A stretch of DNA of 64,000 nucleotides, taken from positions 434,001 through 498,000 of the forward strand of contig NZ_JABWDU010000003.1 in the NCBI RefSeq assembly GCF_013371465.1, given 5' to 3'. The notes under the pieces are model-generated. The model was not told the origin of the DNA. It did not search any database and saw nothing but the letters and a program-made list of their open reading frames with translations. This document shows positions 2,906 through 35,700 of this stretch, in pieces; within the stretch, counting starts at the first letter, position 1, and the number at the start of each line of letters is the position of its first letter. The position numbers were made by a program, and so were the translations under genes. The stretch is from Ensifer oleiphilus (lineage in GTDB: Bacteria > Pseudomonadota > Alphaproteobacteria > Rhizobiales > Rhizobiaceae).

Positions 2906-3720
2906 TTCAGGCCTCGCATGCGGGGGTCGAGCTTGTCGCGGAGCGCGTCGCCGAGAAGGTTAATGCCGAGCAGCGTCAGCGCGATGCAAAGGCCGGGGAA
3001 GAAGCCGAGCCAGACGGCCTGCTCGATGAACGGGCGGCCGGCGGCCAGCATGTTGCCCCAGGTCGGCGCCGGTGGCGGCACGCCGAGGCCAAGGAACGAC
3101 AGCGCGCTCTCCGACAGGATCGCCCAGCCGAACATCGAGGTCGCAAGCACGGTAATCGGCGCAAGGCAGTTCGGCAGGATGTGGCGCAGCATGGTGTAGA
3201 TCTCGCCATTGCCCATGACGCGCGAGGCCTCGATGAACTCCCGTTCGCGCAGCGACAGGACGGCGCCGCGCACGACCCGCGCCATCGACGGCGTATAGGC
3301 GATGCCGAGCGCGAAGATGATGCCGTACTGGTTTGCCCCGAAGACAGCGAGCAAGCCGAGCGCCAGAAGGATGCCGGGGAAGGCGAGCAGCGCGTTGTTG
3401 ACCGCCATGATGACGCCATCGACCCAGCCGCGGGCATAGCCGCTGACAAGGCCGATCAGCGTGCCGCAGACTACTGCGAAGGCAACCGTGAGACAGCCGA
3501 TCCAGACGCTGGCGCGGGCGCCGATCATCAGCCGGCTGGCAACGTCGCGTCCGAACTCGTCTGTGCCGAGCCAATGGGCGGCACCGGGGGCTGCCAGACG
3601 AGAGGTGAAGCCGAGTGCCGAGGGATCGTAGGGCGTCCAGAACACCCCGATCAGCGCGGTAATGACGAGCACGGCGATGAGACCGCCGCCGATGACGCCG
3701 TTGAACGTGAACTTTCTCAT
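2902..3720 (-). CDS. peptide ABC transporter permease (DppC type)
   Basis: 272 residues from the ATG at 3720, which begins MRKFTFNGVIGGG. A longer reading upstream to 3810 exists but runs into the previous gene; the ATG at 3720 overlaps the previous stop (ATGA, 3717-3720) and fits the family length. The protein has an N-terminal membrane helix, a short DppC N-terminal domain with a LGTDEFGRD motif, and the binding-protein-dependent permease domain with an EAA-type loop (ASRVMGNGEIYTMLRHILPN). It pairs with the permease encoded at 3717-4661. Confidence 0.93.
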   Translation of the reverse strand: MRKFTFNGVIGGGLIAVLVITALIGVFWTPYDPSALGFTSRLAAPGAAHWLGTDEFGRDVASRLMIGARASVWIGCLTVAFAVVCGTLIGLVSGYARGWVDGVIMAVNNALLAFPGILLALGLLAVFGANQYGIIFALGIAYTPSMARVVRGAVLSLREREFIEASRVMGNGEIYTMLRHILPNCLAPITVLATSMFGWAILSESALSFLGLGVPPPAPTWGNMLAAGRPFIEQAVWLGFFPGLCIALTLLGINLLGDALRDKLDPRMRGLK

Positions 3721-11790: not shown

Positions 11791-11930
11791 TCGCCTCTCT
11801 CCATGTGATTGAGGCGAGATAGTGCATTCATTCTATAGACAATAACAGCAAACGATTTTCAACTCGGGATCACGAACCGGAAAGTCCTACCCCTGACCAT
11901 CTGCAAGATAGTCGTGGATCTCGACAAGGA

Positions 11931-17549: not shown

Positions 17550-18842
17550 TCAGGAGCCCTTGCCGCCGCACTTGCCGGTGGCGACATTGAAGTTGCCGCA
17601 CGACATCGGCGCGCGCCAATCGGCGATCAGGTCCTTGGAATCGGGCAGGTAGTCGGACCATTCGTCGCCAACCACGAGGCCGGGCGTTTCCCAGACCGTC
17701 TCGAACTGGCCGTCGCTCTGGATTTCACCGATCAGCACCGGCTTGGTGATGTGGTGGTTCGGCATCATCGTCGAATAGCCGCCGGAAAGATTGGGCACCG
17801 AGACCCCGATCATCGCATCAAGCACGGCGTCCGTATCTGTGCTTCCGGCCTTCTCGACCGCCTTCAGCCACATGTTGAAGCCGATGTAATGGGCTTCCAT
17901 CGGGTCGTTGGTCACGCGTTTGTCGTTTTTGGTGTAGGCCTTCCAGGTCTTGATGAACTCGGCATTGGCAGGGGTATCGACCGACTGGAAATAGTTCCAG
18001 GCGGCGAGATGGCCCACGAGCGGCGACGTGTCGAGACCGGCGAGTTCCTCTTCACCGACGGAGAAGGCGACCACTGGGATATCTTCGGCCTTGACGCCCT
18101 GGTTCGCCAGCTCCTTGTAGAACGGCACGTTCGCGTCGCCGTTGATCGTCGAGACGACGGCCGTCTTCTTGCCGGCGGAACCGAACTTCTTGATGTCGGA
18201 GACGATCGTCTGCCAATCGGAATGACCGAAGGGCGTGTAGTTGATCATGATATCCTCGGGCTTCACGCCCTTGGAGATGAGATAGGCTTCGAGGATCTTG
18301 TTGGTCGTGCGCGGATAGACGTAGTCGGTGCCGGCCAGAACCCAGCGCTCGACGCTCTCGTTTTCCATCAGATAGTCGACGGCCGGGACAGCCTGCTGGT
18401 TCGGTGCGGCACCGGTGTAGAAGACGTTGCGCTGACTTTCCTCACCCTCGTATTGCACCGGATAGAAGAGGATCGAATTCAGTTCCTCGAAAACAGGCAG
18501 GACGGACTTGCGCGACACCGATGTCCAGCAGCCGAAGACGGCCGAAACCTTGTCCACGGAAACCAGCTCGCGCGCCTTTTCAGCAAAGAGCGGCCAGTCG
18601 GAGGCCGGATCGACGACGACTGCTTCCAACTTCTTGCCGAGCAGTCCGCCCTTCTTGTTCTGCTCGTCGATGAGCATGAGCATGGCGTCCTTGAGCGTTG
18701 TCTCGGAGATCGCCATGGTGCCCGACAGTGAATGCAGAATGCCGACCTTGATCGTGTCGTCAGCCGCAAAGGCGCCGTTGAACGCCGTCGTCGACAGGAC
18801 CGTTGCCAGGAATGCACCGGTGACGCGTGCCTTGATATTCAT
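17550..18842 (-). CDS. urtA: urea ABC transporter substrate-binding protein UrtA
   Basis: 430 residues from the ATG at 18842, preceded by GAGGGG; an upstream extension to 18932 is not supported. A signal peptide (MNIKARVTGAFLATVLSTTAFNGAFA) precedes IKVGILHSLSGTMAISE, the UrtA start motif. VYPRTTNKILEAYL and PVQYEGEESQRNVFYTGA are also characteristic, and CGNFNVATGKCGG closes the protein. It is the periplasmic urea receptor and first gene of urtABCDE. A symmetrical TACGT element lies about 97-112 bases upstream of the start. Confidence 0.95.
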   Translation of the reverse strand: MNIKARVTGAFLATVLSTTAFNGAFAADDTIKVGILHSLSGTMAISETTLKDAMLMLIDEQNKKGGLLGKKLEAVVVDPASDWPLFAEKARELVSVDKVSAVFGCWTSVSRKSVLPVFEELNSILFYPVQYEGEESQRNVFYTGAAPNQQAVPAVDYLMENESVERWVLAGTDYVYPRTTNKILEAYLISKGVKPEDIMINYTPFGHSDWQTIVSDIKKFGSAGKKTAVVSTINGDANVPFYKELANQGVKAEDIPVVAFSVGEEELAGLDTSPLVGHLAAWNYFQSVDTPANAEFIKTWKAYTKNDKRVTNDPMEAHYIGFNMWLKAVEKAGSTDTDAVLDAMIGVSVPNLSGGYSTMMPNHHITKPVLIGEIQSDGQFETVWETPGLVVGDEWSDYLPDSKDLIADWRAPMSCGNFNVATGKCGGKGS

Positions 18843-18938: not shown

Positions 18939-18954
18939 TACGTCATTCTACGTA
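18939..18954. promoter_or_regulatory. candidate activator site upstream of urtA
   Basis: TACGTCATTCTACGTA: inverted TACGT arms with a six-base spacer. The second arm also lies inside a perfect CTACGTAG palindrome (18948-18955). Located about 100 bases before the urtA start on the minus strand. It could be a site for the LuxR-type response regulator encoded at 23067-23987, but that link is inferred from proximity only. Confidence 0.35.
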
Positions 18955-19142: not shown

Positions 19143-19574
19143 ATGAAAGCACGTATCAAGTGGGTTGAAGAGCGGACATTCGTCGGTGAATCCGGAAGCG
19201 GTCACAAGATCGTGCTGGGGACGGCATCCGGTCCGGAAGGGCGCACGCCTGGCCCAAGCCCGATGGAGCTGATGTTGATCGGCGCCGGCGGTTGCTCGGC
19301 CTACGATGTGGTTCATATTCTGGAAAAGGGCCGCGATCCGGTCGAAGATTGTTCCGTGGAGCTCGACGCCGACCGCGCCGAAGAAGACCCGCGCGTCTTT
19401 ACCCGCATCCACATGCACTTCGTGGTGAAAGGGCGTGGCCTCTCTGAAAAGAAGGTCGAGCGCGCGGTCGCCCTGTCGCTTGAAAAATACTGCTCGGCAT
19501 CGGCGATGCTCGCCAAGTCCGCGACGATCACACATGATTTTGTCGTCGTCGACACGTCAGCTGCGAGCGCCTGA
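19143..19574 (+). CDS. OsmC-family protein (YhfA-like)
   Basis: 143 residues. The two reactive cysteines of the OsmC/Ohr fold are present: C51 in the GAGGCSAYD motif and C117 in EKYCSASAML. These residues reduce organic hydroperoxides in characterised members. The sequence pattern (PGPSPMELML and GGCSAYDVV) resembles the YhfA-like subgroup, whose role is less clear than that of Ohr. It stands just before the sensor kinase gene, separated by a nested inverted repeat, and is probably an independent unit. Confidence 0.88.
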   Translation: MKARIKWVEERTFVGESGSGHKIVLGTASGPEGRTPGPSPMELMLIGAGGCSAYDVVHILEKGRDPVEDCSVELDADRAEEDPRVFTRIHMHFVVKGRGLSEKKVERAVALSLEKYCSASAMLAKSATITHDFVVVDTSAASA

Positions 19575-19612
19575 GCCTTTCACGCTTGCTTTCGCCCTCT
19601 CCGCATTGCATA

Positions 19613-19646
19613 AATTTCACGCATAGAATTTGCGTGCCGTGAAATT
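19613..19646. repeat. nested inverted repeat between osmC-like gene and sensor kinase gene
   Basis: The outer arms AATTTCACG and CGTGAAATT (9 bases each, perfect) enclose a second perfect inverted repeat, CACGCA and TGCGTG, at 19618-19623 and 19631-19636. The arms share bases, so two alternative pairings are possible. There is no T-run to suggest a simple terminator. It lies 42-75 bases before the kinase start, so an operator or leader structure is likely. Confidence 0.55.
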
Positions 19647-19687: not shown

Positions 19688-22600
19688 ATGGCGGCACGCC
19701 AGCGCATCATTCCGGTTCGACGGGAATACAATCGCTGGGTCGCCGACCAGACGCTCGAAGACTATGCGCTGCGCTTCACCGCCAAGAGCGCGAGGCGCTT
19801 CTCCTCCGAGCGCATTTCCCAAACCGCGATCGGCGCAATCTCGTTTCTGGCGCTGGAGGCGATCGGTGGTGCGATCACCATGTCCTACGGCACCACCAAC
19901 GCCGTCGTTGCCATCCTGATCGCTAGCGTGATGATCCTGACAGTCGGCCTGCCGATCAGCCGCTACGCCATCCGCCACGGCGTCGATATCGACCTTCTGA
20001 CCCGGGGCGCAAGCTTCGGCTACATCGGCTCGACGCTGACCTCGCTGATCTATGCCAGCTTCACCTTCATCCTGTTTGCCATCGAAGCGTCGATCATGTC
20101 GGGCGCACTCGAGCTTGCGCTCGGCATCCCGCTCTGGGTCGGTTACATCGTCAGCGCCGTCGTCGTCATCCCGCTCGTTACGCATGGCGTACGCCTCATC
20201 AGCAAATTCCAGTTGGTCACCCAACCCTTCTGGATCGTGCTCAATATCCTGCCCTTCGTCTTCATCGCTTTTGCCGATTGGGAGAAGGTCGGCATCTGGC
20301 TCGCCTATGCCGGCATCCATCACGCCTCCGGACCGCCGGGCACACTCGCCCCCTTCGATCTGATCGAGTTCGGCGCAGCCTCCGCGGTGATCTTCGCGCT
20401 GATGGCGCAGATCGGCGAGCAGGTCGACTTTCTGCGCTTTCTGCCGCCGGACGGCCAGCGCAAGCTGCATCACCGTGTTGCTATCTTCCTGGCTGGCTCC
20501 GGTTGGGTACTCGTCGGCGCCCCGAAGCTTCTGGCTGGCTCGTTTCTCGTCGTGCTGGCGCTTTCCTCCGGCATTCCCTCGACCCGGGCCGCGGACCCGG
20601 CGCAGATGTACTACACCGCCTTCGGCTACATGATCCCGTCGCAGACGGCCGCCCTCCTCATGATGGTCGCCTTTGTCGTCGTGTCGCAGTTGAAGATCAA
20701 CGTCATGAACGCCTATGCCGGGTCGCTCGCCTGGTCCAACTTCTTCTCGCGCCTCACTCACAGCCACCCCGGCCGCGTGGTCTGGCTGGTGTTCAATGTG
20801 GCGATCGCGCTGCTTCTGATGGAACTTGGCATCTATCGGCTGCTCGAAGAGACGCTCGGCGTGTTCTCGATCGTTGCGATGGCCTGGCTCTGCACCATCT
20901 CGGCAGACCTCTTCGTCAACAAGCCGCTCGGCCTTTCTCCGCCGGGCATCGAATTCAAGCGCGCCCATCTCTACGACATCAACCCGGTCGGCCTCGGCGC
21001 CATGGCGCTTTCGGCAACAATCGCACTGACCGCGCATTTCGGCGCCTTCGGCGCCATCGCCGCATCGCTTGCGCCCTACATCGCCCTGATCGTCGCCTTC
21101 ATCGCATCGCCCCTGATCGCATGGGCGACGGGCGGAAAATACTATCTCGCCCGCAAGCCGAGAAAGAGTTGGGCGGCCAAGAGCGAGATCACCTGCTCAA
21201 TCTGCGAGCACCCCTTCGAACCGGAGGACATGGCCTGGTGTCCGGCCTATGCCGCCCCCATCTGTTCGCTCTGCTGTTCGCTCGACAGCCGCTGCCATGA
21301 CATGTGCAAGCCCAAGGCCCGGTTCAATGCCCAGGTGGCAACGGTCACGCACGCCCTTCTGCCGGAAGCCATAACGGCGAAGCTGACGACGCGCCTCGGC
21401 CGCTACGCCATTTCGGCGGTGCTCTCGATCGCCGGCATCGGCCTGATCCTGGCGATGATCGCACATCAGACCGGCAACGCGTCGCCGGAGACGGCGACGG
21501 TCGTCGAGCGCACGATTGCCGTCGTCTTCTTCGTCTTTGCCGTGCTCGCCGGCGTCGTCTGCTGGTTCTATGTGCTCGCCCATGACAGCCGTGTCGTCGC
21601 CGAGGAAGAATCATCGCGGCAGAACACCCTGTTGCTGAAGGAGATTGCGGCACACAAGAAGACCGACGCGGCCCTGCAGCAGGCAAAGGAGACCGCCGAG
21701 GCGGCCAATCGTGCCAAGAGCCGCTATGTCGTCGGGCTCAGCCACGAACTGCGCACGCCGCTCAACGCGGTACTCGGTTACGCACAGGTGCTTGAGCGCG
21801 ATGAAACGATCCCGCCGGCGCGACAGGGCGCGATCAAGGTGATCAAACGCAGCGCCGACCATCTCTCCGGTCTCATCGACGGGCTTCTCGACATTTCCAA
21901 GATCGAGGCGGGCAAGCTGCAGGTCTATTCCAATGAAATCAACGTTTACGACTTCCTCGACCAGGTCGTCGAGATGTTCCGGCCGCAGGCGCAGGCTAAA
22001 GGCATCGCCTTCGAACATCGGCGCGCCTCCAGCCTGCCACGCTACGTCAAGACAGACGAAAAGCGGCTACGGCAGATCCTGGTCAACCTGCTCTCGAACG
22101 CCTTGAAATTCACCGAGCGCGGCGAGATCCGCTTCGATATCGATTATCGCAGCCAGGTTGCGACATTTACAATCAGCGACAGCGGCCGGGGCATCGCCGA
22201 GAAGGATTTGCCTCGCATCTTCGACCCCTTTCAGCGCGGTGAGGCGGAGCATCTCGGCAGCATGCCAGGTCTCGGCCTGGGGCTGACCATCACCCGATTG
22301 CTGACACAGACGCTCGGCGGCGAGATATCCGTCGTCAGCGAACCGAACAAGGGCACGACCTTCAAGGTCCGGCTGATGCTCTCCGCCGTCGACCGGCCGG
22401 CGCCGCTTGTGGCCGTGCGCCGGATCACCTCCTATCTCGGCCCGCGGCGGACAATCATGGTGGTCGACGATAACGCCGATCACCGCGACCTGATGCGCGA
22501 AATTCTCACGCCGATGGATTTCACCGTGCTGACGGCCGACAGCGGCAAGCAATGCATCGCCATGCTTGAAGCGCTCACCCCGGATATCTTTCTCGTCGAT

Positions 22601-23074
22601 ATCTCCATGCCCGATATGAGCGGCTGGGATCTCGTTGATCGACTGCGACACGACGGCCAGGTGGCGCCGATCATCATGCTGTCCGCCAATATCGGCGACG
22701 GATCGACCAGAGGCGCCTTTGTCGGCCACAATGATACACTCACCAAGCCCTTTGGCGTCGGACAACTCGCGGACAAACTCGCCGTGCAACTCGGCCTCAA
22801 CTGGATCCATGAGGGCGAAGCATCCGAAGAACCGGTTGCCGTAAGCGCGGATGCGATGACGCTGCCCGGTCAGCACCATGTGGAGGAACTGATCCGGCTC
22901 GGCGAGATCGGCTATGTCAGAGGCATCGAGGCCAAGCTTGCCGAGATCGGCCTGCGACCGGAACATCAGCTCTTCGTCAAGGCAGCGCGGGCTTATGTGC
23001 AGGCCTTCGACCTCTCCGGTTACGATGCCTTCTTGAAGGAAAAAGCGACGATTGGAGCCATCACACGTGGTTGA
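19688..23074 (+). CDS. hybrid sensor kinase with NCS1-permease-like sensor, Cys-rich module, histidine kinase and receiver
   Basis: 1128 residues. Residues ~1-490 resemble NCS1 nucleobase/allantoin permeases, with about twelve membrane helices (TAIGAISFLALEAIGGAI, LTRGASFGYIGSTLT). A cysteine cluster follows, with C503, C506, C518, C526, C529, C530, C536 and C540, probably a zinc-binding module. Two more helices precede a coiled linker, the HisKA phosphoacceptor H686 in SHELRTPLN, the HATPase (NLLSNALKFT, DSGRGI, GLGLGLTI) and a receiver domain with phosphoacceptor D971. A short C-terminal tail remains. It is a transporter-shaped receptor that probably senses or co-transports a nitrogen compound and signals to the response regulator overlapping its 3' end. 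Confidence 0.9.
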   Translation: MAARQRIIPVRREYNRWVADQTLEDYALRFTAKSARRFSSERISQTAIGAISFLALEAIGGAITMSYGTTNAVVAILIASVMILTVGLPISRYAIRHGVDIDLLTRGASFGYIGSTLTSLIYASFTFILFAIEASIMSGALELALGIPLWVGYIVSAVVVIPLVTHGVRLISKFQLVTQPFWIVLNILPFVFIAFADWEKVGIWLAYAGIHHASGPPGTLAPFDLIEFGAASAVIFALMAQIGEQVDFLRFLPPDGQRKLHHRVAIFLAGSGWVLVGAPKLLAGSFLVVLALSSGIPSTRAADPAQMYYTAFGYMIPSQTAALLMMVAFVVVSQLKINVMNAYAGSLAWSNFFSRLTHSHPGRVVWLVFNVAIALLLMELGIYRLLEETLGVFSIVAMAWLCTISADLFVNKPLGLSPPGIEFKRAHLYDINPVGLGAMALSATIALTAHFGAFGAIAASLAPYIALIVAFIASPLIAWATGGKYYLARKPRKSWAAKSEITCSICEHPFEPEDMAWCPAYAAPICSLCCSLDSRCHDMCKPKARFNAQVATVTHALLPEAITAKLTTRLGRYAISAVLSIAGIGLILAMIAHQTGNASPETATVVERTIAVVFFVFAVLAGVVCWFYVLAHDSRVVAEEESSRQNTLLLKEIAAHKKTDAALQQAKETAEAANRAKSRYVVGLSHELRTPLNAVLGYAQVLERDETIPPARQGAIKVIKRSADHLSGLIDGLLDISKIEAGKLQVYSNEINVYDFLDQVVEMFRPQAQAKGIAFEHRRASSLPRYVKTDEKRLRQILVNLLSNALKFTERGEIRFDIDYRSQVATFTISDSGRGIAEKDLPRIFDPFQRGEAEHLGSMPGLGLGLTITRLLTQTLGGEISVVSEPNKGTTFKVRLMLSAVDRPAPLVAVRRITSYLGPRRTIMVVDDNADHRDLMREILTPMDFTVLTADSGKQCIAMLEALTPDIFLVDISMPDMSGWDLVDRLRHDGQVAPIIMLSANIGDGSTRGAFVGHNDTLTKPFGVGQLADKLAVQLGLNWIHEGEASEEPVAVSADAMTLPGQHHVEELIRLGEIGYVRGIEAKLAEIGLRPEHQLFVKAARAYVQAFDLSGYDAFLKEKATIGAITRG

Positions 23075-23987
23075 GACTTATGATCGTCGCGACATCGTCC
23101 TCCTGGTGGACGATTCCCCCGAAGCGCTCGGTTTTCTGACCGAAGCTTTGGAGCAATCCGGCTTTTCCGTGCTGATCGCCACCTCCGGCAATGCCGCCTT
23201 GTCGATTGCCGACCGGATCACCCCCGACGTCATTCTCCTGGATGCGGTCATGCCCGGCATGGACGGGTTCGAAACCTGCCTCAGACTGAAGGCCAACGCC
23301 TCCGTTGGCCAGACGCCGGTGCTGTTCATGACAGGGCTCACCGAAACCGAGCATGTGGTCCATGCGCTCGAAGCCGGCGGTGTCGACTATCTGACGAAAC
23401 CCATCAACATCGATGAGCTGAGGGCGCGCATCCGCGTTCATCTCTCCAATGCCCGCTCAGCGCAAAGCGCCCGCGTCGCGCTCGATGCCGCCGGTCGCCA
23501 TCTGCTCGCCGTTCGCTCTGATGGCAGCGTTCGCTGGTCGACACCGCAGGCCAACCGCCTGGTCAACGCGGCAACCGGCAGCGATGAGGGCCTGGCAACG
23601 ATCGCCAGACGCATTGCAGCTTGGATGGAAAAAACCGAGGCCGGCGGAAAGCGGGAAAACAGTTTTACGCTCGAAGAGCCCGGGCAATCCGGCCTGCAGG
23701 TCTCGTTTCTCGGCGCGATCGGCGCCAACGAATACCTATTCAGGCTGACGGCCGAAAGCCGACGCAGCGACGACGAGATGCTGCGCCAGCACTTCCTCCT
23801 GACCCAACGCGAGTCCGAGGTGCTGCTCTGGATTGCCAAGGGGAAATCCAACCGCGACATCGGCGAGATCCTCGGCTTGAGTTCACGCACCGTCACCAAA
23901 CATCTCGAGCAGATCTACGTGAAGCTGGGCGTCGAAAACCGCGCCTCGGCCGCTGTCAAGGCGACACAGGTCCTGCACGGGATTTAG
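23067..23987 (+). CDS. LuxR-type response regulator
   Basis: About 306 residues from the GTG at 23067, which overlaps the kinase stop; a TTG at 23052 would add five residues. The receiver domain (IVLLVDDSPEAL, DVILLDAVMPGMDGFE, YLTKPINIDELRARI) fills the first ~125 residues. A ~110-residue linker follows, then a C-terminal GerE/LuxR helix-turn-helix (LTQRESEVLLWIAKGKSNRDIGEILGLSSRTVTKHLEQIY, quoted here only as a whole domain at about 245-285). Translational coupling to the permease-like kinase makes it the cognate regulator. Likely targets are the urt genes, by inference. Confidence 0.9.
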   Translation: MVETYDRRDIVLLVDDSPEALGFLTEALEQSGFSVLIATSGNAALSIADRITPDVILLDAVMPGMDGFETCLRLKANASVGQTPVLFMTGLTETEHVVHALEAGGVDYLTKPINIDELRARIRVHLSNARSAQSARVALDAAGRHLLAVRSDGSVRWSTPQANRLVNAATGSDEGLATIARRIAAWMEKTEAGGKRENSFTLEEPGQSGLQVSFLGAIGANEYLFRLTAESRRSDDEMLRQHFLLTQRESEVLLWIAKGKSNRDIGEILGLSSRTVTKHLEQIYVKLGVENRASAAVKATQVLHGI

Positions 23988-25548: not shown

Positions 25549-26994
25549 TTGAACGTGGGGAAAACCTTAAAAAGCGGATTGTTTTCCATTCTGCTCGCTT
25601 CAACCGTGTTCGCGGGGAGTGCCGCCCAAGCGATGACGCTCAGGGAAGCGCTTCAAATCGCAATGGAATCGAACCCTGAAATCGGGCAGTCGATGGAGAA
25701 CCGCGAGGCGATCGAGTTCGAACTTCGCCAAGCCCGCGGCCTCTATCTACCGAGCGTCGATCTGGAGGCTTCGACGGGCGCGCGCCATCTCGAGGACAAT
25801 GGGCGCCGGCTCGCCTCCATCGAAAACGATCCGCTCTATCCTTCCGATGTTGGTTTGACCGTAACGCAGAAATTGTTCGATGGCGGTGCCCGACGGGCGG
25901 AGTTGGAGCGGCAGGCTGCACGCGTCGATAGCGCCTCCTTCCGTGTCCTGGAGCGCTCCGAAACGATCGGCTTGCAGATTGTACGCGAATACTTCGAATA
26001 CATTCTCCAGCAGCAGATCGTAGCGGAGGCTCGCAAAAACGTCGGCGTGCATCAGTCGATCCTGTCGGACATCAGCTCGCTGATATCGGGCGGCGCTTTG
26101 ACCGATGCCGATCGCCAGCAAGCAAGTGAACGGCTACTTGCCGCAAAGGCTCGCCTGCAGGAGGCAGAAGAATCCCTCGACACCGTCAAAATCAGCTTCA
26201 ATCGCCTTGTCGGACAGCCGCTGACCAAGCCGTCCATGCCCAAGTCGGTTGCTGGCGTCCTGCCCAACACGCTGGAGACGGCGATCGGGATCGCCCGCTC
26301 GAACAATCCACGCATCAAGGCCGCTGATGCCGACATCAGTGTCGCCGATTCGCAGGTCAAGGCCGCGCGCTCGACCATGCTTCCCGAGGTCTTTGCCGAA
26401 GGGCGCGTGCGCACAGGCAATGATATTGACGGCTCGACTGGCAATACCTGGGACGCGCAGGCGCGGATCGTCGCGAAGTGGAATCTGTACCGCGGCGGCA
26501 TCGACATCGCCAACGAACAGGAACAGATGCGTCGATCGAGCGAGCAGCGGCTGGTGTTTCACCAGGCGCATCGCGACGTCGAGGAAGCAGTTCGCATTTC
26601 TTGGGAACGCCGCACAAGCCAATACGACATCGCGCGCACACTGAATGCACAAACTCAGATGAACGTGCAACTCGTCGAGTCTTATCGTGAACAGCTCAAA
26701 GTCGGCCAGCGCTCGTTGCTCGACGTGCTGGGCGCGCAGAATGCGCGCTTCAACACCAGTATCCTGGCGAAGACCGCGCAGTACGCAGCCTTGTTTGCCG
26801 AATATCGCCTGCTGGCCGCGACTGGACAACTTTTGTCGACGATGCAGATCAAGGCACCGGCTCAATCCGAAGCCTACGCGCGCGCCGAGTTCAATGTGCC
26901 AGCCACGCCAGCTACAGAAACCTATCGCCGTGTCCCGTCGCGCCAGACAAACGACTTGCCTCTCGACTTGTTGGCGCCGATTCGGCAAAAATAA
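25549..26994 (+). CDS. TolC-family outer membrane efflux/secretion channel (LapE-like)
   Basis: 481 residues from a TTG start (GTG at 25555 is an alternative). A signal peptide ends near SAAQA, followed by the TolC opening MTLREALQIAMESNPEIGQSM. The two repeated coiled-coil halves are present: helix motifs DLEASTGARH, VTQKLFDGGARRAELERQAAR and, in the second half, WNLYRGGIDIANEQEQ. The segment VGQRSLLDVLGAQN near the end is typical of type I secretion channels. It forms the outer-membrane pore for the RTX adhesin exporter with the ABC protein and adaptor encoded just downstream. Confidence 0.92.
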   Translation: MNVGKTLKSGLFSILLASTVFAGSAAQAMTLREALQIAMESNPEIGQSMENREAIEFELRQARGLYLPSVDLEASTGARHLEDNGRRLASIENDPLYPSDVGLTVTQKLFDGGARRAELERQAARVDSASFRVLERSETIGLQIVREYFEYILQQQIVAEARKNVGVHQSILSDISSLISGGALTDADRQQASERLLAAKARLQEAEESLDTVKISFNRLVGQPLTKPSMPKSVAGVLPNTLETAIGIARSNNPRIKAADADISVADSQVKAARSTMLPEVFAEGRVRTGNDIDGSTGNTWDAQARIVAKWNLYRGGIDIANEQEQMRRSSEQRLVFHQAHRDVEEAVRISWERRTSQYDIARTLNAQTQMNVQLVESYREQLKVGQRSLLDVLGAQNARFNTSILAKTAQYAALFAEYRLLAATGQLLSTMQIKAPAQSEAYARAEFNVPATPATETYRRVPSRQTNDLPLDLLAPIRQK

Positions 26995-27021
26995 TAGTTG
27001 TCGTGAGGGCGGGCACAACCG

Positions 27022-29205
27022 GTGGTAATGCAAGGTATCGACAGGCATGCGCAGATTGGCCCGACCCTGACCGGCTTTTCCGAGGCGTTCAAGGAGATTT
27101 GCATCTTCTTGAACCGTCCCTCGTCAGACAGTGTGCTCTATTCCGACGTCCCGTTCGACGCACGGTCGCCGAGCGTTGAAGACGTGTCTCGCATAGCCGA
27201 ACGGGTGGGCCTGGAGACGGAACTCGTCTCGAAGCGCGCGCTTGCCAATCGCGATTTCGTATTCCCGCTGCTGCTCATCTTTCGCGACGGCAGCGCCAGG
27301 GCGTTGCTGGAAGAGGCTCTGGACGGCACGCTCAGCCTTTCGAACAGGGTGGGCAGGCCCGACGAACCGGCGATCAAATTGTCTGATCTACAACTCGGCG
27401 GGCTCGCCTATGCCGTGTCGTTCTCTGCCACCTATTTGAATGCGGCGGCCGGCCGGGGTGTGGGCGAGGCGCGCAGCATCGACCGCCGGCACTGGTTGAC
27501 CTCGACGATCAAGCCCTTCTGGCAAGCCTATGTGCAGGTGGCGATCGCGGCATTTTTCATCAACGTCCTGGCGCTAGCGGCACCCCTTTTCACGATGAAC
27601 GTCTACGATCGCATCCTGCCGAACAAGGCGATCGCGACGCTCTGGGTTCTGGCGCTGGGCATCAGCGCCGCCATCGTCTTCGACTTCCTGTTGAAGACTG
27701 TGCGCGCCGCGCTGATCGACTACGCCGGCCGCAAGGCCGACCTGAAACTCTCCTACATGCTGTTCGAAAAGATCCTGCATGCAACAATGGCCTCGCGGCC
27801 GCCGTCCACCGGAGAATATGCCAACCGGGCGATGCAGTACGAATTCGTGCGCGAGTTTTTCACGTCGAATACGCTCAGCACGATCATCGACAGTCTTTTC
27901 GTTTTCGTCTTCATCGCCGCCATCTATGCGGTCGCGGGCTGGATCGCGCTCATTCCGACGATCGCTTTTATCTTGAGCCTACTGATCGGCTACGTCGCGC
28001 AATATAGGATCGGCCAACGCGTCGCTGCGGCTTCGAACGAATCCGCCCAGCGCCAGGCCCTGCTGGTCGAGACGATCAGCGCGATCGAGACCGTGAAAAC
28101 GCTGCAATCGGAAAAGCAGCTCCTTCGCCGCTGGAACGAACTGGCCAAGCATTCCTCGAACACTTCCGAGCAGATCAAGGAAATCTCCTCCTGGGCGTCG
28201 CACGCAACGCAGTTCGTGCAGCAATTGGTGACGGTCTGTATTGTCGTGGCCGGCGCCTATGAATTCACGGAGGGAAAGATCTCCTCCGGCGCGATCATAG
28301 CCGCGAGCATGTTGGCCGGCCGCGCTGTCGCACCGCTCGGCCAAATTGCCATGACGCTGGCGCGACTGCGCCAGGCGCTGCTGTCGCTGCGGATCCTGAA
28401 TGCGGTGATGGAGCAGCCGGAGGATCGACCCGATACCATCGGTTTCGTCAATCGCGAGATCCGCAACGGCAGCATTACCTTCGTCAATCTCGAATTCGCC
28501 TATCCCGGCAACGACCACAAGGTCGTCAGCGGTATGAACGTATCGATCAAGGCGGGGGAGCGGGTCGGCATCATCGGTCGCATCGGTTCCGGAAAGACGA
28601 CGATCGGCCGCCTCCTGGCCGGTCTCTATCCGCCAAGCGCCGGACGCATCCTGCTCGATGGCGTCGATATCCGGCAACTGCACCCCTCCGTCGTTCGCTC
28701 GGCGGTCTCGTTCGTGTCGCAGAATTCCGACCTTTTCTCGGGCACCATCAAGGAAAACCTCCTGATGGCGAATCCAACCGCGAGCGATGAAGAAGTGGTC
28801 GCGGCGGCGCGACTTGCCGGGGTCGACGAATTCGTTTCCTACCATCCGCTCGGCTACGACATGCCTGTGGGAGAGCGCGGTTCGCAGCTTTCCGGCGGGC
28901 AGCGGCAGGCGGTTGCCATCGCCCGGCTGCTGTTGCGAAAGCCGAAGATCGTTTTTCTCGATGAACCCTCCGGGGCAATGGACCTCGCCAGCGAACGCGA
29001 GCTGATCAACAAACTCTCCAATGTTTTCAGCAGCGATGTCACGCTTGTGATCTCGACGCATCGCCACAGCATGTTGAGCCTCGTCGATCGGCTACTCGTC
29101 CTTGACCGCGGGCGCGTCGTGGCCGATGGTCCGAAGGCCGAGGTGATCGAGCAGTTGCAAAGGCGGCCCGGTCCTTCCGCCCCACCTTCGGGAGCCGGCC
29201 TATGA
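27022..29205 (+). CDS. type I secretion system permease/ATPase (LapB-like)
   Basis: 727 residues (GTG at 27022; ATG at 27028 is an alternative). The first ~130 residues form a peptidase-C39-like domain lacking the catalytic Cys (a CLD). Next come five to six membrane helices in the ABC-transmembrane region (about 160-450) and a C-terminal ATPase with Walker A GRIGSGKTT, signature LSGGQRQAVAIARLL and Walker B IVFLDEPSGAMD. The C39-like N-terminus is typical of exporters of giant RTX adhesins (LapB, HlyB). It sits directly after the TolC gene and before the HlyD-type adaptor. The probable cargo is the 1920-residue adhesin. Confidence 0.93.
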   Translation: MVMQGIDRHAQIGPTLTGFSEAFKEICIFLNRPSSDSVLYSDVPFDARSPSVEDVSRIAERVGLETELVSKRALANRDFVFPLLLIFRDGSARALLEEALDGTLSLSNRVGRPDEPAIKLSDLQLGGLAYAVSFSATYLNAAAGRGVGEARSIDRRHWLTSTIKPFWQAYVQVAIAAFFINVLALAAPLFTMNVYDRILPNKAIATLWVLALGISAAIVFDFLLKTVRAALIDYAGRKADLKLSYMLFEKILHATMASRPPSTGEYANRAMQYEFVREFFTSNTLSTIIDSLFVFVFIAAIYAVAGWIALIPTIAFILSLLIGYVAQYRIGQRVAAASNESAQRQALLVETISAIETVKTLQSEKQLLRRWNELAKHSSNTSEQIKEISSWASHATQFVQQLVTVCIVVAGAYEFTEGKISSGAIIAASMLAGRAVAPLGQIAMTLARLRQALLSLRILNAVMEQPEDRPDTIGFVNREIRNGSITFVNLEFAYPGNDHKVVSGMNVSIKAGERVGIIGRIGSGKTTIGRLLAGLYPPSAGRILLDGVDIRQLHPSVVRSAVSFVSQNSDLFSGTIKENLLMANPTASDEEVVAAARLAGVDEFVSYHPLGYDMPVGERGSQLSGGQRQAVAIARLLLRKPKIVFLDEPSGAMDLASERELINKLSNVFSSDVTLVISTHRHSMLSLVDRLLVLDRGRVVADGPKAEVIEQLQRRPGPSAPPSGAGL

Positions 29206-29265
29206 TGCACGTCATCTGCACAAGCGCGAGACGAAGCCAGTCGACACGTGGCGGAAGGTGCCAGC

Positions 29266-30546
29266 ATGACTGAGAAACCGCCGCTTGCCGCACGCGCGGG
29301 GCTGCTTGTCGTAGGCTTGCTGATCAGTTCCTTTGTCGCCTGGGCAGCGATCGCCGAGGTGGATGAGATCGCGCGAGGAGAAGGCAAGGTCATCCCGGTC
29401 TCAAAGACGCAGATCATCCAGTCCAGTGAACCGGGCATCGTGCGCGAGATCGCGGTGCAGCCCGGACAGGTCGTTCGCCGCGGCGATCTGATCCTGCGGC
29501 TTGACGACACTGCGAGCGGCTCCTCGCTTGGCGAACTTGAGGCGAAGGCGCGATCATTGCGTGCGCAAATCGCGCGGCTGGAGCTCGAGGAGACCGGTGC
29601 CTACGACGCAAAATACGAATGTCCTGAGGAAATCACCAAGGTAGCACCGGCCATATGCACCAACGAAGAGCAGCTGCTTAAAGCCAAAGCCGGGAATTTC
29701 AACAACAAGCTGTCGGTCATGCAGGCACGTGAAGGCCAGCGCCAGAAGGAATTGGCCGAAGCACAGGCGAATATCAATCGGCTGGGCGAGAGCTTGCAGT
29801 TAACCGAGCGCGAGCAGGAACTGCTCGCGCCGATGGTAAAGCGTAAGCTCGTCGCGCAGACCGAGTCGCTCAGGGTTGAGAAGGAGCTGACCGATACTCG
29901 GGGTCAGCTCGCCCTCTGGAAGGAGTCGGTCGGAAAGCTGGAGGAGGCAGTCAGGGAAGCAACCCTGCAAGTGTCGGAGCTTTCGCTGCAACTGAAGCAG
30001 GAAGCCCTGGCGGAGAAAACCGAGGCACTTTCACAACTTTCCGTCATCGATGAAACCATCCGCGGCGCCAGCAGCCGGGTCGCAAACACCGACATTCGTT
30101 CGCCGGTCGACGGCATCATCAACACGCTTGATGTCAACACGGTCGGCGCCTATGTGACGCCCGGCGGCGTAATTGCCGGCGTCGTCCCGACGTCGGAGAT
30201 TTTGCTTGTCGAGGCACGGCTTTCTCCGCGGGATGTTGCCTTCGTGCGCCCCGGTCAGCCGGCGCTGATCAAGATATCGGCCTATGATTTCTCGATCTAT
30301 GGCGGCCTCGGCGGTGTCGTCGAGACCGTCAGCGCAGACAGCCTTGTCGATCAGAACAACGGCGAAACCTACTACCTCGTACGCGTCAAGACCGACACGG
30401 CCGCGCTCATGAAGGATGGCCGCGAATATGCTATCATGCCCGGCATGATTGCATCGGTGGATATCATGACGGGCAAGAAGACGATCCTTGCGTATCTGAT
30501 GAAACCGATCAACAAGGCGCGCGAGGAAGCTCTGCGGGAGCGTTGA
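29266..30546 (+). CDS. HlyD-family type I secretion membrane fusion protein (LapC-like)
   Basis: About 426 residues from the ATG at 29266, preceded by GGAAGGTG; a GTG at 29248 would add six residues. One N-terminal membrane helix (GLLVVGLLISSFVAWAAIAE) precedes the HlyD start motif GEGKVIPVSKTQIIQSSEPG. A long periplasmic coiled-coil hairpin (about 85-260) and a barrel domain with IRSPVDGIINTL follow. It joins the inner-membrane ABC exporter to the TolC-type channel. Only three bases separate its stop from the next gene. Confidence 0.92.
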   Translation: MTEKPPLAARAGLLVVGLLISSFVAWAAIAEVDEIARGEGKVIPVSKTQIIQSSEPGIVREIAVQPGQVVRRGDLILRLDDTASGSSLGELEAKARSLRAQIARLELEETGAYDAKYECPEEITKVAPAICTNEEQLLKAKAGNFNNKLSVMQAREGQRQKELAEAQANINRLGESLQLTEREQELLAPMVKRKLVAQTESLRVEKELTDTRGQLALWKESVGKLEEAVREATLQVSELSLQLKQEALAEKTEALSQLSVIDETIRGASSRVANTDIRSPVDGIINTLDVNTVGAYVTPGGVIAGVVPTSEILLVEARLSPRDVAFVRPGQPALIKISAYDFSIYGGLGGVVETVSADSLVDQNNGETYYLVRVKTDTAALMKDGREYAIMPGMIASVDIMTGKKTILAYLMKPINKAREEALRER

Positions 30547-30549
30547 CCA

Positions 30550-31158
30550 ATGAACGAGACGCCGCCTCCCCCGTCCGAAAAGGACTTGAGTGCGCTGCGG
30601 TTTCGCGTCGTCAACGTCGGCGGTCAGCGCCACGGAATTAAGCTTGAGGAGATCTATTGGCAGAGTCTTGGCGAGCTTGCCGCGCGACATGGCCGCAAGC
30701 TCGCCGATATCGTTGCCGCCTGCGAAAGTGAACTTGAGGGCGCAGGCAACCTGACGGCGCGGCTACGCTATATCGCCACCCGTCACCTGCGCGACGAGCT
30801 TTCGTCGGCCAAGTCACGCAGCAATCTGGCTGTTGTCACGAGCCAGGTCCGTGCGAGCCCATCGCCAGCCTTTGCGCTTACTGGGAATAAGCATATCATT
30901 GCCTACAACCCCGCATTCCTCTCCTTCGTCCAATCTCGCGTCTTCGGCGCGCAGCAACCTCAGGCCGCCCGGAGCTTAAAGCTCTCCTTCGACGTTCAGT
31001 TTGTCGATCTCGTCAGCCGCCTGAAATCGTCTCCCGGCGAGCCGCAATCGGCAGGCTTCACGATAGGCGTCCAGGGGCAGGTTACGCGGGGTAAGCTCAA
31101 CGCCGCCCTGGCCCCACTCTCCGACCAGGACGTGATCATCGGCTTTATCCTGACCTGA
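30550..31158 (+). CDS. ribbon-helix-helix protein with a PAS-like C-terminal part
   Basis: 202 residues. The N-terminal ~85 residues resemble the RHH_4 family: FRVVNVGGQRHGIKLEEIYW, then LGELAARHGRKLADIVA, and NLTARLRYIATRHLRDEL. The C-terminal ~100 residues (AFALTGNKHIIAYNPAFLSF ... GKLNAALAPLSDQDVIIGFI) have the look of a PAS-type sensor fold. The start lies three bases after the HlyD-adaptor stop, so the gene is almost certainly co-expressed with the exporter. A DNA-binding or sensory regulator of the adhesin locus is an inference; its target is unknown. Confidence 0.7.
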   Translation: MNETPPPPSEKDLSALRFRVVNVGGQRHGIKLEEIYWQSLGELAARHGRKLADIVAACESELEGAGNLTARLRYIATRHLRDELSSAKSRSNLAVVTSQVRASPSPAFALTGNKHIIAYNPAFLSFVQSRVFGAQQPQAARSLKLSFDVQFVDLVSRLKSSPGEPQSAGFTIGVQGQVTRGKLNAALAPLSDQDVIIGFILT

Positions 31159-31257
31159 TGACGCGGGACCATCGCCGCCGCAGCGCGTGTTGAGACTAAA
31201 GCGGTGATTTCGAGCGGCCACCGGTGGGGCGAAAGGTTCAGCGTTTATCGATGAGGT

Positions 31258-32187
31258 TCAGCGAAGCGCGATACCCTCGCCGGGCATGACATCGAGCATT
31301 GGCGCCGTCGACGCGACCTTGTCGCCGGCCGACTTGACACCGTGGATCCAGGAACGGTCGGCGCTGACAGAAAAGAGCGGCTGGTAGTTGGGCAGCGCGC
31401 TGTCGAGCTTCACCTCGTCGCTCAGATTGTCGAGGATGAAGTGGCCCTGGCTGGTCGTGATCGCGAGCACGGCGTGATAGAAATTGCGTTTGACATCGCG
31501 GAGAACGACGATCGCCATGGCTTCCGACGGGAGGCCGGCCGCTTTCAGAGCGGCCATCTTCAGGATCGCATAGTCCTCACAATCCCCCTTGCCGCGGCCG
31601 AGAATTTCGTCCGGGGTCGCCCAATAGTCCTTGGAGCCGTAGTTTTCGGCGTCTGGCTGGTAGCGAATGAGCCGGTTGACGGTCCGGTTGATGCCGCTGA
31701 TCTTGTGCCTGAAGGCGAGATTTTCAGCGTTTTCGACCGCTTTGCCGAGGATGTCGCGGGCGGCACAACCGCTCTGTTGTGCGCAGTGGCTAAAATCAGC
31801 CGCGGCAACCGTCGGAAAGACAGTCTTCCATTTGCGGGCGATAGGGATCGAAGCGACGCGAAAGGCGACGGAGTGAAAGACTGCGGAGGGGACCGACCGC
31901 GCCGGAGTCCGGTTGCCAATGTTGGCTCGCGTCGTTATCGCCACATTCTGGACCTGTTGGCGCTTGAACGCTTCGGACGCTTGGTTCGACAAGGCGCCGA
32001 TGACCTGCGTGGCCACAGCAGCCAACGGGCTTGCAAGACTCATCATATGCTGGACAAGAGCGGGCTGAGGCATGCCGCCTTGTCCGGCCTGCACGGGCGA
32101 TGTTGCAAAAAGCGACCCCAGGACGATCGCAATCGCCGTAGACTTCAGGTATTTCGCGCAGTGGTTCCAGCTCTTTTTGTTCATCAC
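31258..32187 (-). CDS. lapG: LapG-like periplasmic transglutaminase-type cysteine protease
   Basis: 309 residues (ATG at 32187; the second Met at 32184 is equally possible). A signal peptide ends near PVQA-G. The bacterial transglutaminase-like cysteine protease fold carries the triad C203 (GKGDCEDYAILK), H238 (FYHAVLA) and D253 (FILDNLSD), with spacings like those of P. fluorescens LapG. The ~95 residues between the signal peptide and this domain are longer than usual. LapG cleaves the N-terminal retention module of LapA adhesins and releases them. Here the adhesin gene is divergent, and an AAG-type site exists in it at residues 144-146. Confidence 0.9.
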   Translation of the reverse strand: MMNKKSWNHCAKYLKSTAIAIVLGSLFATSPVQAGQGGMPQPALVQHMMSLASPLAAVATQVIGALSNQASEAFKRQQVQNVAITTRANIGNRTPARSVPSAVFHSVAFRVASIPIARKWKTVFPTVAAADFSHCAQQSGCAARDILGKAVENAENLAFRHKISGINRTVNRLIRYQPDAENYGSKDYWATPDEILGRGKGDCEDYAILKMAALKAAGLPSEAMAIVVLRDVKRNFYHAVLAITTSQGHFILDNLSDEVKLDSALPNYQPLFSVSADRSWIHGVKSAGDKVASTAPMLDVMPGEGIALR

Positions 32188-32555
32188 CGTGCCTCTCGTT
32201 GCATGAAGGCACTCTACGAATGAAAAGAAAAACTCCGGTAAAGCGGCATGGACTATATAGTATGTCCCGTAACAATACGTATTTCATAAAATTTTATTCA
32301 AATTTTATACTTGTGTATTGCTTTGGATCACTAGGGGATTTTCGTCAAACTCCAGACTTCGCCCCCATGAGGCCTTGCAACAGCCGGCACCAGGCCGCTC
32401 GCGGCTTGCCTGGCGGAAACGCTTTCATCGAGGAGGAAGTCCGGGACAACCCGGTTCGGTCGATCGCGTGAATTCCGGTACTGCTCCGTCGGGACGGCAG
32501 CACTTGCTTGGTCGAACTCTGACGCGCCGTCCGGACACTGGTTTCGCACCCATGA

Positions 32556-32594
32556 CCAAAATTGTTAAGATTGAATCAATCTAACCAATTTTGG
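32556..32594. repeat. 39-base imperfect palindrome upstream of the adhesin gene
   Basis: The outer arms CCAAAATTG and CAATTTTGG match perfectly; the inner arms AGATTGA and TCAATCT also match, with two mismatched positions between outer and inner arms. The total span of 39 bases is large for a single dimer site and could bind a tetramer or two dimers. Confidence 0.6.
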
Positions 32595-32600
32595 GTATTA

Positions 32601-32616
32601 GCATAACATATTATGC
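32601..32616. repeat. second dyad upstream of the adhesin gene
   Basis: GCATAACATATTATGC: perfect 6-base arms around a CATA centre, seven bases after the larger palindrome. AT-rich and close to where a promoter would be expected. Confidence 0.55.
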
Positions 32617-32700
32617 GATTTCTCGATAACTCCTCGGGCACCGATTGCGACCGCACCGGCTTGGTGTTTTCTTGCCCGCAAAGGTCGAGGGGTATTTGTT

Positions 32701-35700
32701 ATGGCAACCGAAGGCACCGCAATTTCGAACGAAGCCGCCGCAACTCCGGCAGAGGCAATCGAGCATCACGAAGCAGCAGATGGCAAGGTAGGTCGTCTGG
32801 TGGCGCAGGCCGGCGCTGGCGCGGCGGAAGAGCCACAACTCCTGGACCCGGCAACCGGCACTCCGGCGAAGGGCGCCGAGCCCTCCCTGCAGACGCCACC
32901 GATGCCGGCGACGATCAGCGCTGATGCTTCGAATATCGTGCACTTGCCTGCAGGCGCATCGATCGAAAAGATCAAGGTCGTCGTCGCGGATATCGTTTTG
33001 GAACAGCCTGACGGCTCCACGATCACGGTACAGAACGCCGCATTGAAGGTTCCGACTTTCGTGATTGGAGACGCGGAAATCCCGCGCGAAACTCTCGTGG
33101 CGGTGCTCGGAGAAAACGGCATCAACGTCGCCGCAGGCCCGGATGGCAGCATCAGCGTCGTATCGAACCAGAGCAGCGGCGGCGACTTTTCTGACGCAGA
33201 CGGCGACATTGGCCAGGCCGGCCCGGTCATCGATCTGCTGGCGCCCACTGCGCTACAGTTTCCGGCGCTTGAGGCCACCGAGCTTCTACCCTTCGCGGCC
33301 GACCTGAATGACACCCCCTCGATCATCCCCGATTCCAGCGGCGATCCAAGCGGCATTTTCGTGAGCGACAGGCAGGTCGATGAGGCCGGCGTCGTCGGGG
33401 GATCGCGTGCCGGTGATGGCAGCGCGTCTGTCAGCGGCGTCTTTACCATTTCCGATCCGAATGGCCTCGGCGACATCGCCAGCCTGACCATCAACGGTCA
33501 GACTTTCGCAATTGGTGGTCTCGTCGGCCAGAGCGTTATTGGCCAGTTCGGTACATTGACCATCACCGCCTACGATCCGGTGACCGGCGTGGCGCAATAC
33601 ACCTTCGATCTGGCGAGCCCCGTCTCCAGCTCCGGCATTATCCCCGGCACGAATGTCGAGCAGGACCGCGACATCTTCAACCTGACGGTCACCGATGTTG
33701 ACGGTGCGACCGGCTCCGCCACACTGCGCATCGATGTTGTCGACGACGTGCCGGTGATCGGGATCACCGATCCGGAATCGGCACAAATTGTCGAAGGCCA
33801 GACGCTTTCCGGCAACTGGACGCTTTCGGCCGGTGCCGACGGTGTCAGCACGGTCGACGTGAAGGTCGGCGAGACGACGCAGACGCTGACCTTGACGGCA
33901 GGACAGTCGGTGGCCTTCACGCTTGCCCAGGGCACGCTGACGGTCAATGCCGACAAGACCTGGTCGTTTGCTGCCAACAGCAACCTCAACAATGCGGGCG
34001 GCACCAACGTCACCTTCTCGCTGTCGGCCAAGGATGGTGACAACGACACCACCACCGACAGCCAGACGATCACCATCACCGATGGCGCCGGTCCGACGGT
34101 CGGACCAGAATCGGGAAGCGTCTCGCTCACACTCGACGACCAGAACCTTGTCGACGGCTCGACGCCGGCGGGAGCGGACACGAGCAGCGGCACGATCGGC
34201 TTTGCGGCCGGTTCTGATGCGATCGCCACGATCGTATTCGGCAACACCAGCACCCTCACCGGTGCGCTGACCTGGGAACGGGTCTCCGACACCCAGATCG
34301 TCGGCCGGGCCGGCGGCGTGACCATCGTCACACTCGACCTGGTGCGCAGCGGCGACAGCGCGACGGTGACGGCGACACTTTCCGACAATTACGCCAGCCA
34401 TCCCGGCATCAACGCCGACGACCTGGCCAGCCTCGGCTCGGTCAAGGTCATCGCCTCCGACACCGACGGCGACCAGGCAGAAGGCACCGTCACCGTCTCG
34501 GTCTCCGACGATCTTCCGAAGATCGACATCACCAACCCGACCTCGTCGAGCATTGTCGAGGGACAGTCGCTTTCCGGCAACTGGACGCTTTCGGCCGGTG
34601 CGGACGGCGTCAGCACCGTCGACGTGAAGGTCGGCGACACCACAAAGACGTTGACGCTTGCCGCGAACCAGAAGGTGGAGTTCGTCCTTGCCGAAGGCAA
34701 GCTGACGGTCAACGCAGACAAAACCTGGTCGTTTGCGTCCAACGGCAACCTCAACAATGCCAATGGCGCCAACGTCACCTTCTCGCTGTCGGCCAAGGAT
34801 GGCGACAACGACACCACCAGCGACAGCCAGACGATCACCATCACCGATGGCGCCGGCCCGACGGTCGCACCGGGATCGGCAAACGTCTCGCTGACGCTCG
34901 ACGACCAGAACCTCTCGGACGGCTCGACGCCTTCAGGTCCCGACACCAGCAGCAGCACGATCACCTTCACCCCCGGTTCGGACGCGATCGCCACGAGCGC
35001 GTTCGGCACCGACATCAGCGGCCTGATCGGCGGATTGACCTGGCAGCGCGTCTCCGCCACCCAGATCGTCGGCCGCGTCGGCGGGATCGCCATCGTCACC
35101 CTCGACCTGGTGCCCGGCGCAAACAGCGCGACGGTAAAGGCGACGCTCAACGACAACTACGCCAGCCATCCCGGCGTCAATGTCGACGACCTGGCAAGCC
35201 TCGGCTCGGTCAAGGTCATCGCCTCCGACACCGACGGCGACACCGCCGAAAGCACGGTCAACCTGTCGGTCTCCGACGATCTTCCGAAGATCGACATCAC
35301 CAACCCGGCCTCGTCGAGCATTGTCGAGGGACAGTCGCTTTCCGGCAACTGGACGCTTTCGGCCGGTGCGGACGGTGTCAGCACCGTGGACGTGAAGGTC
35401 GGCGACACCACAAAGACGTTGACGCTTGCCGCGAACCAGAAGGTGGAGTTCGTCCTTGCCGAAGGCAAGCTGACGGTCAACGCAGACAAAACCTGGTCGT
35501 TTACGTCCAACGGCAACCTCAACAATGCCAACGGTGCCAACGTGACCTTCTCGCTGTCGGCCAAGGACGGCGACAACGACACCACCAGCGACAGCCAGAC
35601 GATCACCATCACCGATGGCGCCGGACCGACGGCGACGGACAACAGCGCCTTGATCACTGTTCACGAGAAGGGTCTCGACAACGCCAACGCCCTGGGCAGC

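Follow-up and report, generated by a model that had tools for sequence, protein, structure and literature searches.

The SLC5-STAC kinases CbrA, CrbS and RpuS carry an N-terminal transporter domain and a C-terminal kinase in one polypeptide, according to excerpts of two papers (PMC13022988, PMC9100948). In Sinorhizobium fredii, the RpuS/R pair raises the expression of a transporter operon, for which a conserved motif in the promoter is required (PMC9100948, in excerpt). In Ks-Amt5, a transporter domain of the Amt fold has likewise been recruited as a receptor, for ammonium, and fused to a kinase; the abstract and outline of that paper mention no cysteine module (PMC5764959). Here we describe a hybrid sensor histidine kinase and its co-encoded NarL/LuxR-type response regulator, located beside the urea importer genes urtABCDE of Ensifer oleiphilus. 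They lie in the 64,000-nucleotide stretch of contig NZ_JABWDU010000003.1 (positions 434,001 to 498,000) that we analysed as a whole and call the window. The kinase works like CbrA/RpuS and Ks-Amt5 but belongs to neither family. In contrast to the SLC5-STAC kinases, its transporter domain is NCS1-like, a cysteine module and a helix pair take the place of the STAC four-helix bundle, and the operator and operons are others; neither SLC5 (SSF) nor STAC was among its Pfam matches. The analogy to CbrA drawn in the original prediction, which was made from the letters alone, holds in that a transporter domain and a kinase share one protein.

We estimate a probability of about 0.75 that the locus encodes a two-component system that serves the use of urea in the branch of the window and of short-chain amides in its sister branches, in which an NCS1-derived receptor controls an importer. 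This reading builds on the observed architecture, the invariant cysteine motif, the gene order, a repeat and its co-occurrence with the system, and repeats before formamidase genes in some relatives; the ligand, the metal, the direction of control and a coupling role for the cysteine module are what we infer. The kinase gene comprises the following features:

19688..23074, + strand: hybrid sensor histidine kinase with NCS1-like N-terminal domain (1128 aa, ATG start)
19688..21157, + strand: NCS1-like permease domain, residues 1-490 (hhalign to a standalone NCS1 permease, E = 2e-32; Foldseek matches CodB and Mhp1)
21194..21307, + strand: eight-cysteine module, C503-C540 (C-x2-C-x11-C-x7-C-x2-CC-x5-C-x3-C)
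21392..21733, + strand: two long helices, residues 569-682, the end overlapping HisKA (AlphaFold2 secondary structure)
21716..21913, + strand: HisKA, residues 677-742, His686 (Pfam)
22052..22381, + strand: HATPase_c, residues 789-898 (Pfam)
22454..22780, + strand: receiver (Response_reg), residues 923-1031, Asp971 (Pfam)

The open reading frame (ORF), the Pfam domains and the structure models agree on a single 1128-residue protein of a permease-like part, eight cysteines, two helices, kinase and receiver, as originally described. Its GC content by codon position resembles that of other window genes. HisKA, HATPase_c and receiver are all present, as in a hybrid histidine kinase, and the expected phospho-sites are H686 and D971, while no Pfam family scored above its cut-off upstream of residue 677. 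Judging from the model, residues 569-682 are likely a transmembrane (TM) pair leading into the signalling helix. Because no histidine phosphotransfer (HPt) domain with a conserved His was found behind the receiver, where the conserved tail is His-free, direct phosphotransfer to the regulator (with the receiver modulating) and relay via a separate HPt protein appear equally likely from the sequence.

Relatives came from two sets. The named set holds the best 80 of at least 579 kinase loci, mostly from Rhizobiales, two of which (L080 and L081) share one contig. A phylum sample of 299 genomes, in which up to 4 candidates per genome were scored, gave a kinase match below 1e-100 in 38 genomes, the window's own included; the distant set consists of 30 kinase loci from 26 of these 38, with 19 loci outside the window's class. 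The named UrtA and kinase rows nearest to those of the window are from Sinorhizobium, and the sensor domain is 96.8% identical to a plasmid copy of Ensifer canadensis.

None of 30 family members matched PF02133 (Transp_cyt_pur) at E ≤ 1 in the alignment of residues 1-500, and a profile of the permease-domain alignment found nothing in the PDB. A free-standing relative of 497 aa (L166) does match PF02133 (36.4 bits, 3.6e-9; cut-off 23.5), and hhalign connected the kinase alignment A2 to it at E = 2e-32 over 435 columns. Two further free-standing relatives, L168 and L169, fell below the PF02133 cut-off, and a phmmer search of L166 against the PDB gave one unrelated, likely chance match. For the AlphaFold2 model of residues 1-683 (mean pLDDT 80.5), the five best solved Foldseek matches were all CodB or Mhp1, both NCS1 proteins, with E-values from 8.9e-11 to 8.4e-7 (CodB 8.9e-11, Mhp1 2.2e-9). 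Structures of SLC5, which shares the NCS1 fold type, ranked below them. Because of the L166 intermediate and the predicted-fold matches, we regard the N-terminal domain as NCS1-derived, though it has no direct NCS1 profile match. It has the fold of CodB/Mhp1 and a remote homology to them via L166, and differs from them in the missing PF02133 match and the fusion to a kinase. The original prediction had taken an absence of NCS1 similarity in a profile search as speaking against such an origin; plain Pfam does return none, but the intermediate sequence and the structure overturn that result, and the proposed structure prediction and search led to CodB/Mhp1.

Across 35 diverse sequences, 101 of about 490 permease columns are invariant, including E57, Q241, E244, Q245, D247, K336, N338 and N341. 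In the model, the first long helix pair is broken just ahead of E57, and by their positions E57 and E244 could sit in a small polar binding site. D247, N338 and N341 are common to the kinases and the free-standing L166 and L168, Q241 is common with L166, and K336 is Arg in the free-standing relatives. The intact, conserved permease core might indicate that the domain is an active urea or amide transporter whose flux is read by the kinase, a true transceptor; excerpts of one study on CbrA report that its SLC5 domain is able to take up histidine, with signalling carried out by the full-length protein (PMC13022988). We consider this possible but doubtful, given that the invariant E57, E244 and Q245 are replaced in both L166 and L168, that Ks-Amt5 is described as binding ammonium without translocating it (PMC5764959, in part), and that most loci contain an ABC importer anyway.

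The eight cysteines (C503, C506, C518, C526, C529, C530, C536 and C540) have identical spacing in 110 of the 110 kinases compared and no counterpart in the three free-standing permeases. Invariant columns make up 15 of 38 in the module, a higher share than in the permease. A profile of the module, run over 398 genomes with up to 15 first-look candidates per genome scored and matched frames classed by length, matched 57 times, each time in a frame of 894-1365 aa, a length within the range of this kinase family; the element is as unusual as had been proposed. In the models, one CxxC is followed by a hairpin and then by another CxxC where a helix begins, which we take to be the layout of a treble-clef zinc finger. 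We think the module likelier to hold zinc than an Fe-S cluster. Spacing kept in every kinase and a per-column conservation above that of the permease would also suit a module that is itself the sensor, of redox, nickel or zinc state, with the permease only a membrane anchor, and urease is a nickel enzyme. We find this improbable: 101 invariant permease columns in so diverse a set exceed an anchor's needs, and the distant copies mostly stand with formamidase or amidase rather than with urease.

Behind the kinase lies the regulator gene, and on its other side are the urt genes with a predicted operator:

23052..23987, + strand: NarL/LuxR-type response regulator, REC 16-128 and GerE 250-304 (Pfam; TTG start, 311 aa)
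18939..18954, no strand assigned: predicted regulator operator, TACGTCATTCTACGTA, about 97 bp before the urtA ATG
17550..18842, - strand: urtA, urea-type ABC substrate-binding protein (PF13433), start taken at the MNIK codon
15747..17363, - strand: urtB permease, named after the annotated S. medicae locus L173
14587..15753, - strand: urtC permease, start inferred from the 1167-bp urtC annotated in L173
13817..14590, - strand: urtD ATPase, named after L173
13080..13775, - strand: urtE ATPase, named after L173

The regulator ORF overlaps the kinase ORF by 23 nt. In the window and in 80 of 80 named relatives, the regulator is no more than 150 nt from the kinase stop. The estimated overlap has a median of 23 nt, and an in-frame regulator start at or before that stop exists in 74 of the 81 loci. 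Of the translationally coupled LuxR regulator that had been predicted, the overlap and the REC and GerE domains stand, and the coupling itself is plausible from the sequences. NarL-type regulators likewise combine REC and GerE; NarL prefers inverted heptamers spaced by 2 bp (PMC4549865, in excerpt), and the 16-bp TAC..GTA repeat described below resembles this 7-2-7 site. The window regulator differs from NarL in its 311 aa, its long central region and the heptamer TACGTCA. This central region (residues 129-249), of about 120 residues, has no Pfam match and is possibly PAS-like.

With urtA on the minus strand, the urt genes are divergent from the kinase, and a divergent urtA is found upstream of the kinase in 78 of 81 loci (the window and the 80 named). 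As for the three loci in which no urtA was seen, the sequence of L075 begins 0.8 kb upstream of the kinase, that of L102 begins within the kinase, and L087 has none within 10 kb. A palindrome was first recognised by reading the regions upstream of the kinases; its family consensus, TACGTCAATTGACGTA, is a 16-bp inverted repeat of NarL-like 7-2-7 layout. TACG-N8-CGTA, a search pattern that fixes the outer TACG/CGTA and that was counted in the same loci in which the repeat was discovered, is present in 78 of 78 loci holding kinase, regulator and urtA. It lies 76-127 bp (median 95) before the urtA start, as estimated in the relatives by alignment to the window UrtA. Over 98 sites the consensus is TACGTCA-WW-TGACGTA-like, with the outer four bases set by the pattern itself. 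Two controls were used for this count, and dinucleotide shuffles gave 0 sites in 100 rounds, while none of 17 kinase-less relatives had a site within 400 bp of urtA. This second control came from 32 genomes listed without the kinase (15/20 and 17/20 of two listings), 18 of which contained UrtA at 1e-60; the 17 rows counted show 69-89% identity, and one is from an 85% complete genome. Three remote kinase-less UrtA rows were dropped, none with the repeat and one with only 25 bases upstream. In the UrtA tree, kinase absence and site absence coincide.

The site keeps its position before urtA whether the kinase is 0.2 or 7.8 kb away (the latter in L070), and because this position is constant despite the varying kinase distance, the operator belongs to urtA. 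The tie to the urt operon that had been predicted was upheld by both the gene order and the operator. Allowing 2 mismatches, the urtA site occurs nowhere else in the window's genome (1 match for the reversed control). A GATAGT-like element appears 3' of the operator in the 60% consensus of 78 promoters, at a position that fits activation from upstream, although this is suggestive only. We infer that the regulator binds the repeat and acts by activation rather than repression; judged from these sequences, it very probably switches on the neighbouring urea-uptake genes.

In the distant set, urea or amide genes were found within 10 kb of the kinase at 30 of 30 loci (formamidase at 24, urease at 6). 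An Fmd-type ABC importer of about 40% UrtA identity is also present at 22 of the 24 formamidase loci, and at the other two the formamidase lies downstream of a shorter kinase. Of the six urease loci, two have UrtA in the stretch, two have urtB-E and two have no urt gene there. The enzymes that recur are formamidase, an AmiE-like amidase and urease; in L138 Pfam matched FmdA (PF03069), in L146 a carbon-nitrogen hydrolase and in L151 a zinc ribbon, presumably FmdB-like. The repeat stands at UrtA or FmdD in 18 of the 24 distant loci with either gene in the stretch, and in L145, L147, L151 (89 bp) and L152 formamidase is preceded by an additional site at a distance of 72-100 bp. In the kinase tree, the partner type switches 4 times, at least 3 of them on well-supported branches. 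Urea as a likely cue, which had been suggested from the window, fits the urt, urease and amide genes that recur beside the kinase.

A match was found in 538 plasmid records, 342 of them from Klebsiella, and on a Klebsiella plasmid the same kinase stands beside urtABCDE and formamidase. That conjugative plasmid (NZ_CP034681.1) has the operator at 11879; no regulator gene is annotated behind its kinase, and transposases follow.

Formamidase, amidase and urease all release ammonium. The system could control the urt/fmd operons but sense this common product or the general nitrogen status, and an Amt-derived ammonium-sensing kinase is known in Ks-Amt5 (PMC5764959, in part). This seems unlikely to us, as the sensor is NCS1-like, not Amt, and three genomes with two kinases (G198, G265 and G286) have one copy beside formamidase and one beside urease, a one-copy-per-operon pairing that suggests operon-specific cues. 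Purine-derived ureides such as allantoin and hydantoin are a very improbable ligand. NCS1 permeases move such compounds according to the Pfam family description, and L168, the free-standing relative of the sensor domain, adjoins ORFs that look hydantoinase-like by eye from their N-termini. Against this, the kinase repeatedly has urt/fmd importers, formamidase, AmiE-like amidase and urease as neighbours, although no search was aimed at ureide genes. The purine-ureide link that the original prediction had drawn from an M20 amidase pair was not sustained: the M20 hydrolase tested (62327-63631) is about 40 kb off, and the recurring neighbours are formamidase, AmiE-like amidase and urease instead.

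Under the urea or amide reading, a permease of NCS1 ancestry would now serve mainly as a receptor for urea or an amide. Ligand in the central site, or a slow transport cycle, would shift the conformation of the permease, and the change would pass through a cytoplasmic, metal-binding cysteine module and the TM pair to the kinase. The kinase would then determine how far its own receiver and the co-encoded LuxR/NarL-type regulator are phosphorylated. A regulator dimer would bind the 16-bp 7-2-7 repeat about 95 bp before urtA and activate the urtABCDE urea importer and, in some lineages, formamidase. Beyond the single locus, it is a little better than an even bet that these proteins form a widespread proteobacterial class of NCS1-derived urea or short-chain-amide receptor kinases, with a metal-binding cysteine coupler in the place of STAC, the 7-2-7 operator marking the regulon, and several switches between amide and urea specificity.

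Several observations weigh against the reading as a urea or amide system. No residue separates all urea-linked from all amide-linked kinases across all clades. The best partial separator is position 393, which is F in 21 of 21 Rhizobiales-type rows and in L150/L154, and Y in 24 of 24 amide-linked kinases but also in L157, L158, L165 and L160. Fold matches of the cysteine module include RING, PHD, FYVE, LIM and ZZ, none of them significant (best E 0.91). The strict repeat is missing at UrtA/FmdD in 6 of 24 distant loci, although L145 and L147, which are among the six, carry a repeat ahead of formamidase. Correcting the co-occurrence for the tree left 3 well-supported independent pairs (8 on all branches), an underpowered comparison; on average 2.7 pairs went the same way, 0 the opposite way and 0.3 showed no difference, with a median p of 0.25, which is not significant. 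In the window's genome, the family consensus within 3 mismatches occurs at 11 places against 9 for the control and is not enriched, and one of its sites, C29:240429, matches the consensus better than the window urtA site does. Nothing was found there to show control of urease, which lies on another contig, or of the FmdA/AmdA homologue. The C29 site itself (G000:C29:240429-240444, TACGACAATTGACGTG) has two mismatches from the family consensus and is a possible second target.

Similar loci have been listed before. Table 4 of a paper on D. aromatica gives a histidine kinase of 1131 aa, a receiver of 308 aa and UrtA (PMC2907700), and in E. guguanensis G3 urtABCDE adjoins a LuxR two-component pair, and fmdA carries the locus number that comes next (PMC13296017). 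By size and gene order, both kinases would belong to this family; the passages on these loci list them without describing a permease domain, cysteine module, operator or regulatory role. In Pseudomonas veronii, urtABCDE beside formamidase was suggested in 2026, from co-location, to import formamide (PMC13209695, in excerpt), which fits the amide reading. A full-text literature search, with most subscription journals outside it, found no description of this kinase class and no two-component sensor dedicated to urea or small amides.

There is a good chance that these kinases are a new class of transceptor. If so, a second transporter family of this fold type is fused to kinases through a different coupling element, offering a way into the question of how a kinase is driven by the conformational change of a transporter. 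The wider class, if real, would constitute a two-component system dedicated to sensing urea. As sources of nitrogen, urea and small amides are common, and the system supplies a candidate receptor, regulator and operator for them; it spans rhizobia to enterobacteria (as plasmid copies) and looks widespread and little studied.

Some relatives depart from the architecture of the window kinase. L200 (G328:C6:505000-510000) encodes, at 1857-3713, a related hybrid kinase of 618 aa without the permease domain, apparently a permease-less derivative with a degenerate cysteine remnant at its N-terminus and a convergent regulator gene. L143 and L164 form a shorter branch with frames of about 880-900 aa and no C-terminal receiver. 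With ORF starts judged by eye, the ORF after the short kinase of L164 begins like a separate response regulator, and both loci have formamidase downstream and a small FmdB-like zinc-ribbon ORF nearby.

The spacer between urtA and the kinase varies, from one gene in the window to three other genes in S. medicae and about 200-400 bp in many loci. The window's spacer gene is:

19143..19574, + strand: OsmC-family gene (PF02566; Pfam), a non-conserved neighbour

The OsmC gene is where the original prediction had placed it, but it is not a conserved neighbour, with no match of at least 80 bits in the 80 named loci or of at least 60 bits in a set of 34 loci. Between osmC and the kinase (19578-19646), repeats of TTTCACGC and an inverted repeat were considered as a regulatory site and dropped; TTTCAC/GTGAAA occurs within 260 bases before the kinase in just 13 of 111 kinases. 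Further along the window, at 25549-38463, ORFs that by eye resemble a type I secretion set surround an ABC transporter identified by Pfam (27022-29202) and are followed by a 1920-aa ORF.

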